Part shown: in pieces, positions 14,551 through 15,514 of the stretch
How the letters are laid out: each line of letters starts with the position of its first letter
How positions within the stretch are numbered: the first letter of the stretch is position 1
Assembly (NCBI RefSeq): GCF_017592825.1
Contig: NZ_JAGFMD010000015.1
Coordinates: 1-39,555 of the forward strand
DNA from: Roseivirga sp. E12
GTDB lineage: Bacteria > Bacteroidota > Bacteroidia > Cytophagales > Cyclobacteriaceae
Direction of reading: 5' to 3'
Length of the DNA: 39,555 bases
Notes under the pieces: generated by a model
The model's input: only the letters and a program-made list of their open reading frames with translations
Databases searched by the model: none
Told to the model about the DNA's origin: nothing
Program-made: the position numbers and the translations under genes

Positions 14551-14605
14551 GGGGTATTAGCTCAGTTGGTTTAGAGCGCCCCGACTTGTCGGGGAGGTCA
14601 ATCCG
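14551..14605 (+). pseudogene. tRNA 5'-half remnant 1 with anticodon arm replaced by a hairpin
   Basis: The sequence begins like a tRNA: acceptor strand GGGGTAT, TA, then a D-arm GCTC..GAGC identical to that of the neighbouring tRNA-Val, then G. Where the 17-nt anticodon arm should be stands the perfect 16-nt hairpin CCCCGACTTGTCGGGG (14579-14594), followed by AGGTC, which looks like a variable loop. No T-arm or 3' acceptor strand follows. The acceptor and the AGGTCA segment suggest an Ala- or Ile-type parent, but this is only a guess. It cannot act as a tRNA. Confidence 0.7.
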
Positions 14606-14629
14606 GATGATCTTTTAGATTAGAGTAAA

Positions 14630-14704
14630 GGAGTGTTAGCTCAGTTGGTTTAGAGCACCGCCTTGACAGGGCGGGGGTCGTTGGTTCGAATCCAATACAC
14701 TCCA
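14630..14704 (+). tRNA. tRNA-Val (anticodon GAC)
   Basis: This is a complete cloverleaf. Acceptor GGAGTGT pairs with ACACTCC, the D-arm is GCTC/GAGC, and the anticodon arm is CCGCC-TTGACAG-GGCGG with anticodon GAC (valine). The variable loop is GGGTC and the T-arm is GTTGG-TTCGAAT-CCAAT, with discriminator A at 14704. CCA is not encoded. It lies 24 bp after tRNA remnant 1 and shares that remnant's D-arm sequence. Confidence 0.95.
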
Positions 14705-14867
14705 CTTTTTAATTCCTTGTTTTAAGGTACTTGGTGATTTAACAGGCTTAACTTTTCAAAGTCATTCCATGTTCTTACATAGTCAATTGGCACTAGCATC
14801 ATTGACAGACTATACTCATTTTAACATTTATAATAAGGTTGGCGGAATTCGTATCATAGCTAATCAA

Positions 14868-15125
14868 ATGTCTATTAACTATACCTATATATTAGAATCT
14901 TCTACCAGTGGTCGTTGGTACTATGGCCACAGTGCTAATGTTGAAGAGAGATTGCTACAACATAATGCAGGTCAGAATAAGTCCACTAGAAATAAAGGCC
15001 CATGGACGTTGATTTTTATTCGTGGGTTTGGAAATAAGCTGGAAGCGAATAGATTTGAACTCTACCTAAAAAAGCTGAAGAACAAGAGCTATATAAAAAG
15101 AGAATATGCACAGTATTTTCTATGA
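14868..15125 (+). CDS. GIY-YIG nuclease-like protein, tandem copy A
   Basis: This 85-residue single-domain protein has the GIY-YIG layout: YTYIL (5-9) and WYYG (17-20), Arg28 and His32 in the VEERLLQHN helix, PW at 45-46, and Glu64 in EANRFELYLKKLK as the likely metal ligand. GIY-YIG domains cut DNA in homing endonucleases, UvrC and some restriction enzymes. Small stand-alone ones are common in Bacteroidota with unknown roles. The ATG at 14868 is preferred because the domain begins four residues later. The open frame extends upstream to an ATG at 14769, but that extension has no domain character. The TGA stop is 2 bp before tRNA-Pro remnant 2. Copy B downstream matches at 75 of 85 residues. 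Confidence 0.85.
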   Translation: MSINYTYILESSTSGRWYYGHSANVEERLLQHNAGQNKSTRNKGPWTLIFIRGFGNKLEANRFELYLKKLKNKSYIKREYAQYFL

Positions 15126-15127
15126 TT

Positions 15128-15177
15128 CGGGATGTGGCGCAGTCCGGTAGCGCACCCCGACAGGTCGGGGTGGTCGC
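15128..15177 (+). pseudogene. tRNA-Pro 5'-half remnant 2 with anticodon arm replaced by a hairpin
   Basis: This matches the intact tRNA-Pro at 15440 from the first base: CGGGATG, TG, GCGC D-arm and AGTCCGGTA loop. Then, in place of the 17-nt anticodon arm, comes the perfect 16-nt hairpin CCCCGACAGGTCGGGG (15155-15170). The match resumes with TGGTCGC (variable loop and first T-arm bases) and stops at 15177. The T-arm and 3' acceptor strand are absent, and the GIY-YIG copy B ATG begins 3 bp later. The hairpin has the same CCCCGACnnGTCGGGG form as in remnant 1. Confidence 0.82.
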
Positions 15178-15179
15178 CT

Positions 15180-15437
15180 ATGGTTAAAAACTACACTTAC
15201 ATATTAGAGTCTTCAACAAATGGTAGTTGGTACTATGGTCATAGTATCAATGTTGAAGAGAGATTGCTACAACATAATGCGGGTCAGAATAAGTCCACTA
15301 GAAATAAAGGTCCGTGGTCGTTGATTTTTATTCGCGAGTTTGAAAATAAGCTGGAAGCGAATAGATTTGAGCTCTATCTAAAAAAGCTCAAGAACAAGAG
15401 TTATATAAAAAGAGAATACACAAGGTACTTTCTATAA
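15180..15437 (+). CDS. GIY-YIG nuclease-like protein, tandem copy B
   Basis: This 85-residue GIY-YIG domain protein is 88% identical to copy A, with ten substitutions that spare the YTY, WYYG, Arg28, His32 and Glu64 positions. Retaining these residues while diverging elsewhere suggests that both copies were under selection for function. The ATG at 15180 lies 3 bp after tRNA-Pro remnant 2. The frame stays open back to 15132 through the remnant, but that N-terminal extension (WRSPVAHPDRSGW) is simply translated tRNA sequence and is probably not real protein. The stop is 2 bp before intact tRNA-Pro, as in copy A. A role in DNA cleavage linked to tRNA loci is inference from the arrangement. Confidence 0.85.
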   Translation: MVKNYTYILESSTNGSWYYGHSINVEERLLQHNAGQNKSTRNKGPWSLIFIREFENKLEANRFELYLKKLKNKSYIKREYTRYFL

Positions 15438-15439
15438 TT

Positions 15440-15513
15440 CGGGATGTGGCGCAGTCCGGTAGCGTACTCGTCTGGGGGGCGAGTGGTCGCAGGTTCAAAT
15501 CCTGTCATCCCGA
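15440..15513 (+). tRNA. tRNA-Pro (anticodon GGG)
   Basis: This is a complete cloverleaf. Acceptor CGGGATG pairs perfectly with CATCCCG, and the D-arm is GCGC/GCGT. The anticodon arm is CTCGT-CTGGGGG-GCGAG with anticodon GGG (proline). The variable loop is TGGTC, the T-arm is GCAGG-TTCAAAT-CCTGT, and the discriminator is A. CCA is not encoded. It lies 2 bp after the stop of GIY-YIG copy B, so transcription may read through from the GIY-YIG gene. Confidence 0.95.
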
Positions 15514-15514
15514 C

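Follow-up and report, generated by a model that had tools for sequence, protein, structure and literature searches.

The two displaced tRNA halves in the window (the whole stretch of DNA analysed, 39.6 kb) probably belong to a tandem array of a tRNA-linked GIY-YIG element, in which SegB-like, isotype-tied genes would duplicate their tRNA, and the spare tRNA copies would become targets of dispersed, mobile palindromes with a tendency to lodge in DNA stem-loops. The duplication of the unit, the isotype ties, the presence or absence of palindromes at matching places and the preference for stem-loops are supported by sequence comparison. The case in the window is one instance of an arrangement that recurs in many related bacteria, and palindromes of the hairpin's family also fill RNase P RNA arms and terminator-like stems in related bacteria.

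Layout of the window locus

On the + strand, a tRNA half with CCCCGACTTGTCGGGG, the intact tRNA-Val(gac), GIY-YIG copy 1, a tRNA-Pro half with CCCCGACAGGTCGGGG, GIY-YIG copy 2 and the intact tRNA-Pro(ggg) follow one another (Table 1), where the start codon of copy 1 was picked by homology. The first-pass annotation had placed the hairpin CCCCGACnnGTCGGGG at the site of the anticodon arm in two displaced tRNA 5' halves, which we could confirm with an exact match in each; at the second half the 16-nt hairpin stands in for the 17-nt anticodon arm of tRNA-Pro, CTCGTCTGGGGGGCGAG. The assignment of this second half to tRNA-Pro was likewise borne out, with one difference over its 27 nt. Of the Ala/Ile parentage proposed for the first half, the likeness to tRNA-Ala holds, which is the best match over the first 28 nt, but 21 nt are also identical to positions 7-27 of the adjacent tRNA-Val(gac), so that by sequence the parentage is ambiguous between tRNA-Val and tRNA-Ala.

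Table 1. Features of the tRNA/GIY-YIG locus, in window coordinates.
Feature	Position	Strand	Remarks
Displaced tRNA 5' half (acceptor 5' strand and D-arm), Val/Ala/Ile-like	14551..14578	+	sequence GGGGTATTAGCTCAGTTGGTTTAGAGCG
Palindrome CCCCGACTTGTCGGGG replacing the anticodon arm	14579..14594	+	no mismatch
Variable-loop remnant AGGTC	14595..14599	+	by eye
Intact tRNA-Val(gac)	14630..14705	+	ARAGORN and Rfam
Small GIY-YIG nuclease gene, copy 1	14868..15125	+	85 aa from ATG at 14868; PF01541 E 2.6e-16
Displaced tRNA-Pro 5' half, 27 nt	15128..15154	+	intact tRNA-Pro positions 1-27 save T to C at position 26
Palindrome CCCCGACAGGTCGGGG replacing the anticodon arm	15155..15170	+	no mismatch
Variable-loop remnant TGGTCGC	15171..15177	+	2 nt before ATG of GIY-YIG copy 2
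Small GIY-YIG nuclease gene, copy 2	15180..15437	+	224/258 bases identical to copy 1
Intact tRNA-Pro(ggg)	15440..15514	+	ARAGORN and Rfam

When the window was scanned with ARAGORN and Rfam for a full cloverleaf, neither half was called as a tRNA, leaving the intact tRNA-Val and tRNA-Pro as the only calls. A terminator reading of the two window hairpins was rejected, since no T-run or A-run lies beside either of them. We additionally observed that a frame (15132-15437, MWRSPVAH...) stays open from an ATG within the tRNA-Pro half, across the palindrome and into the GIY-YIG gene; the same open frame runs from tRNA-Pro half through palindrome to GIY-YIG at L051:2998-3321, and at L052 the corresponding frame seems, by eye, to hit a stop.

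Small GIY-YIG genes and their tRNA neighbours

Both window genes scored above the cut-off for PF01541, and a search of NCBIfam gave no family for the window protein. Compared with sequences of solved structure, copy 2 matched two UPF0213 proteins first (best E 1.1e-10) and then SLX1 (E 0.0037), and the active-site residues Y7, Y18, G20, R28, H32 and E64 are invariant in all 22 of a hand-picked set of 22 tRNA-linked proteins. Searched alone against genome contigs, the window protein matched two loci only, both adjoining tRNA-Pro. Five GIY-YIG matches in its own genome each adjoin a tRNA together with pieces of that tRNA which carry palindromes; two are those at tRNA-Pro in the window, and the others stand at tRNA-Asp, tRNA-Ala and tRNA-Asn. 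For five others of its small GIY-YIG genes (L076, L132-L135), no tRNA or piece was found within 400 bp. Among 160 distinct small GIY-YIG ORFs, from loci chosen by best score and not randomly and with counts inflated by tandem copies and common ancestry, 69 lie no more than 400 bp from a tRNA or displaced piece (functional tRNA 51 and/or displaced piece 60). A second class of 91 has no tRNA within 400 bp (L073-L080, L132-L135 and others); an Rfam scan of 20 loci for a link of such tRNA-less genes to an RNA family returned one unrelated sRNA match.

Isotype labels on the GIY-YIG tree, which are those of the nearest feature and of which a few are doubtful (Phe, Cys), required 20 changes compared to 37.1 after shuffling, a value as low being reached by none of 200 shuffles with one row per locus and isotype. 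With tandem copies included (67 rows), 20 changes stood against 47.1. Leu and Ser each form one clade, and a Met clade of five rows spans genomes of five families, on a tree built from short alignments in which deep branches are unsure. The GIY-YIG lineages are tied to tRNA isotype, as would be expected of a SegB-like, free-standing homing endonuclease situated at its target gene; location is what was tested here, and from it we infer the target. Tandem tRNA-nuclease units hold two GIY-YIG copies in the window, five at L051, four at L136, three at L137 and two at L138.

The tRNA-Ala(ggc) gene, which is present once each in 18 of 19 genomes of the genus, allowed the states of one locus to be compared, with scars scored by eye over about 170 bp upstream and 520 bp downstream. 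A GIY-YIG gene occupies 7 of these 18 loci, in five genomes 3' of tRNA-Ala with palindrome-bearing pieces (G000, the genome of the window, and G098, G113, G111, G105) and in two as a member of another clade 5' of it (G114, G057). Six genomes carry a palindrome-bearing scar without GIY-YIG (G101, G103, G106, G102, G099, G110), those of G099, G106 and G110 being imperfect, and five have neither scar nor GIY-YIG (G107, G108, G109, G104, G100). Comparison of the congeners thus reveals three states of the tRNA-Ala gene, namely empty, occupied and a scar without GIY-YIG. By eye, the terminators behind the functional and the displaced tRNA-Ala stand in reversed order in G103 and G101 (L267, L266 and L270 being the loci compared, the last in G111), as if copies had recombined. 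At the locus of the window itself, G098 has one GIY-YIG gene and no displaced Pro half within 400 bp, where G000 has two with one half between them, and the upstream half of G098 carries a D-arm palindrome that is absent from G000. Further palindrome-bearing tRNA scars were seen by eye in the window's genome at L233 (C11:1126243), L216 (C11:1263221), L236 (C22:190348) and L306 (C22:415576); no GIY-YIG gene lies in about 3 kb around the first three or in the 456 bases examined at L306, which sits at a contig end and looks, by eye, like a tRNA-Val scar.

Palindromes in tRNA pieces, RNase P RNA and elsewhere

Displaced tRNA pieces were collected as 129 rows with at least one 24-bit match, of which 78 were kept for having at least 18 nt matched and lying either at the Ala locus or no more than 400 bp from a GIY-YIG ORF, an earlier chain list having been dropped as too lenient because of its many chance 8-mers. 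An internal or abutting palindrome was found in 55 of the 78 pieces and none by that rule in 23, some of which may be chance matches (e.g. L078 Phe, L117 Cys), while the imperfect palindromes of L282 and L189 were missed by the rule. With a simpler rule, the same for controls, 58 of the 78 pieces held or abutted a GC hairpin, whereas 200 random placements at the same loci averaged 6.8 and never exceeded 15. A specific insertion or replacement product, as the first-pass annotation had proposed, is therefore well supported in the neighbourhood of GIY-YIG genes, over several isotypes and families. The anticodon arm accounts for 39 of the 71 hairpins that could be placed, the D and T arms for 12 each and Leu/Ser pieces for 8. 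Those of the anticodon arm come from the isotypes Ala, Asn, Asp, Met, Pro and Val in nine groups of genomes, and where both flanks could be measured (31 of 39), 6-21 nt are missing and 15-20 nt present; for palindromes of the CCTGCC type, 9 of the 10 cases that could be measured show a loss of 0 nt. Arm sequences vary with lineage: the genus has CCCCGAC and TCCCGA, Maribacter (L052) has TCCCGCC and a Cytophagales MAG (L051) CCACGCC, while tRNA-Met pieces from other families show TCCGCC and TCCGGC. By a looser rule, hairpin density is 2.02 per kb beside tRNA-linked GIY-YIG genes and 0.17 per kb at Y1 loci. At L020, a duplicated terminator appears by eye to have kept its stem foot, with ATCCCGACATGTCGGGAT now at the top.

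Within the window, three matches to the hairpin were found at up to 3 mismatches, where 0.40 were expected and 4 of 100 shuffles reached three; the third match lies within the intact tRNA-Val. Its core CCCGACNNGTCGGG of CCCGACNNGTCGGGG occurs at 18 sites in the own genome, compared to 0 for the reversed control. Two of these are the tRNA halves and two belong to RNase P RNA; the other 14 are followed by a T-run or preceded by an A-run (9 show both) and look like terminators, although one of them (L008) is part of a conserved element and no plain terminator. The hairpin is therefore not special to tRNA halves. The broader pattern CCCGAN{2,8}TCGGG gave 73 sites compared to 19 for its reversed control, and of 57 distinct broad sites compared, 31 have a T-run after or an A-run before. 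A wide scatter without a link to tRNA halves had been named in advance as the outcome that would speak against an insertion product. The outcome was mixed, in that the palindromes are scattered but a link to tRNA genes exists: 8 among 50 listed of the 73 broad sites, representing 5 distinct loci, lie within 400 bp of one of 37 tRNA genes, in 0.58% of the genome, with L233, L216 and L236 among these neighbourhoods. In the own genome, for the 50 sites listed, the palindromes are enriched beside tRNA genes.

As judged by eye, other broad sites fall within another dispersed repeat (GTCATTGCGA / GTCATTCTGA type) or close to tRNAs. This repeat seems, again by eye, to hold CCCGA..TCGGG palindromes in its interior, with own-genome loci at L285, L286, L292, L294, L295, L296, L302 and L312. 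L284 and L307 of the same genome are terminators with a GGCCCCG-type stem, in whose loop the palindrome CCCCGAAACTTCGGGG seems to sit as judged by eye. A large palindrome expansion was observed in G116, from another family of the same order, which has 190 copies of TCCCGANNNNTCGGGA against 0 for the control.

The two RNase P RNA sites are helices in the RF00010 alignment, which we take to be P3 and P9. A [CT]CCGA..TCGG[AG] hairpin is present in 16 of 37 rnpB genes and the reversed control in 0 of 37; these genes were taken without regard to the palindrome from 39 genomes, with one gene not anchored and one omitted, and four rnpB genes picked for their palindrome (L063, L067, L068, L072) were excluded from the count. 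The rnpB gene of L068 holds five palindromes, and the position varies by genus between P3, P9, P12 and arms further 3'. The same hairpin is contained in an element of ~150 nt conserved in three genera (L008:1436-1600, that is G000:C22 about 102386, and L070 and L064 from other genera of the family), which follows the pattern GACAAG.TTTG...CTGTTA.CCT...CGAGGCCCCGACNNGTCGGGGTGAGG...TTCAC.CGGTATT. Rfam gave no match around L008, L064 or L070 at E 0.05, and the element is perhaps an undescribed structured RNA.

Origin of the palindromes and relation to known systems

We propose a model in which a small, isotype-tied SLX1/UPF0213-like GIY-YIG nuclease adjoins a tRNA gene and, from what sequence comparison indicates, the [tRNA-GIY] units have been duplicated, with one tRNA copy remaining functional and the rest turning into displaced halves. 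By analogy to phage SegB, cuts of the nuclease at the tRNA gene would drive this duplication. The displaced copies would then gain short palindromes of a dispersed, lineage-specific family (arms e.g. CCCCGAC, TCCCGA, TCCGCC, CCTGCC), which, to judge from their positions and from empty and filled places, enter sequence able to form a stem-loop or replace its top, be it in anticodon, D and T arms, terminator stems or RNase P helices. Insertion may take place at breaks or extruded hairpins of the spare tRNA copies, while selection would purge the same event from the working tRNA. A part of the GIY-YIG enzyme in moving the palindromes would be conjectural, since the number of palindromes shows no correlation with that of PF01541 matches across 19 genomes of the genus (Spearman 0.18, p 0.47), and many of them are remote from GIY-YIG genes. 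More tentatively, and with doubts that outweigh our confidence, one could see here a new kind of mobile DNA in Bacteroidota, in which palindromes of 15-24 nt without a transposase of their own invade the loops of stem-loops, swap the apical part and spread via breaks made by small, SLX1-like, isotype-specific GIY-YIG nucleases, so that within one genome the same stem would come to be shared by terminators, spare tRNA copies and helices of RNase P RNA.

Other explanations have to be weighed against this model. The halves could be functional RNA, the upstream tRNA half serving as promoter or leader of the GIY-YIG mRNA and the hairpin blocking tRNA processing or charging or controlling translation of the nuclease. 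The GIY-YIG start codon lies 2 nt past the tRNA-Pro variable loop in the window and about 5 nt past it in Maribacter (L052), the fold of the Pro half has an energy of -22.3 kcal/mol, palindromes affect the anticodon arm more often than any other, and the accessible part of PMC2988022 reports RNA hairpins that restrain translation in T4 segB and further homing endonucleases of phages. However, the fold z-scores of the two halves are just -1.29 and -1.26, palindromes also occur in displaced 3' halves downstream of the GIY-YIG gene (L018, L019, L020), D and T arms are affected too, and scars remain where the GIY-YIG gene is absent, which renders a functional RNA unlikely. A tRNA-mimicking RNA without an anticodon, which the first-pass annotation had also considered, does not stand as the main reading: kindred palindromes are found in D and T arms, terminator-like places and RNase P helices, and their arms vary between lineages. 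Convergent selection for very stable hairpins, by which a CCCGA..TCGGG stem would arise repeatedly wherever a strong stem-loop is wanted, agrees with the runs at 31 of 57 broad sites and with the tolerance of peripheral RNase P stems for many paired sequences. We consider it improbable, since the reversed pattern, equal in composition and pairing, is rarer in each comparison made above (the core, the broad pattern and rnpB), dead displaced tRNA pieces have no evident need for a stable stem, and clean insertions free of loss differ from base-by-base convergence.

Short and dispersed palindromes would equally be expected if a Y1 (RAYT/IS200-type) transposase moved ordinary REP elements and the GIY-YIG genes and tRNAs were bystanders, and Y1 matches are present in 14 of 19 genomes of the genus, with 2 matches in the own genome. 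Against this, no hairpin starting with the arm motif was found at 24 Y1 loci, where the looser rule gave the low density stated above, and TCCCGANNNNTCGGGA sites are present in four of the 5 Y1-less genomes (G057 14, G100 9, G099 7, G102 7), the fifth, G113, being incomplete with 0. GTAG or CTAC lies within 8 nt of 2 of 57 own-genome sites, where 3.2 are expected, the GTAG near the second window hairpin belongs to tRNA-Pro, and palindrome and Y1 counts are uncorrelated (Spearman -0.08). RAYT/Y1 was consequently rejected as mobiliser, the 24 loci giving no support and the GTAG tag being absent, and this origin is about as improbable as convergence. Random decay or assembly error could be suspected in a draft genome of 35 contigs with the window as a single 39.6-kb contig, but we regard it as having next to no chance: two different parents carry identical hairpin arms, like structures occur in independent assemblies and other families, and in the separately assembled congener G098 a comparable half, with CCCCGACAAGTCGGGG, precedes tRNA-Val (L081).

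The duplicated, isotype-tied GIY-YIG units with palindromes in their spare tRNA copies link two puzzles, the tiny GIY-YIG genes adjoining tRNA genes and the identical stems in unrelated structured RNAs. If the exchange of hairpins is true, essential RNAs, RNase P RNA among them, can have their peripheral helices swapped by mobile DNA, which would bear on variation in RNA architecture, and the isotype-tied nucleases would offer a natural set of candidate tRNA-gene-specific cutters. With its empty, occupied and scar states, one tRNA locus in one genus makes the cycle testable.

UPF0213 nucleases, which we take to be YhbQ-type, and SLX1 share domain size and active-site motif with the window proteins, and SLX1 is named structure-specific; to our knowledge, neither is known as a tRNA-linked tandem element. 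Fungal mitochondrial double-hairpin and GC-cluster elements are GC-rich mobile hairpins that enter RNA genes, but they are organellar, and we know of no isotype-tied GIY-YIG duplication for them. In the open-licence literature searched, we found no description in which isotype-tied chromosomal GIY-YIG arrays occur with palindrome-filled tRNA copies while RNase P helices carry the same palindromes.

Each of the two components is of a known kind, the short dispersed palindromes according to the accessible part of PMC3733652 and the tRNA-linked homing endonucleases of GIY-YIG type according to that of PMC13096335. REPtrons combine GTAG REPs with RAYT transposases (PMC3733652, accessible part), and REP elements resemble the present palindromes in being short, dispersed and present in many copies; the latter differ in having no GTAG tag, in the lack of an arm-motif hairpin at the 24 Y1 loci and in lying also within stem-loops of RNA genes. 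Rickettsia palindromic elements are likewise mobile palindromes entering genes, but the same part of PMC3733652 describes them in protein-coding genes, with RPE-1 being longer, whereas the palindromes here span 15-24 nt and occupy tRNA pieces, RNase P RNA and terminators. SegB, a free-standing GIY-YIG homing endonuclease of T-even phages, cuts in tRNA genes and is required for tandem [tRNA-segB] repeats, according to the accessible parts of PMC13096335 and PMC2988022, and both systems feature a GIY-YIG gene adjoining tRNA genes and tandem tRNA-nuclease units. SegB is phage-borne, and those parts of PMC13096335 and PMC2988022 report no favoured isotype and do not mention palindromes in tRNA copies, whereas the Roseivirga element is chromosomal, encodes a protein of about 85 aa, is tied to isotype and is accompanied by palindrome-filled spare tRNA copies.
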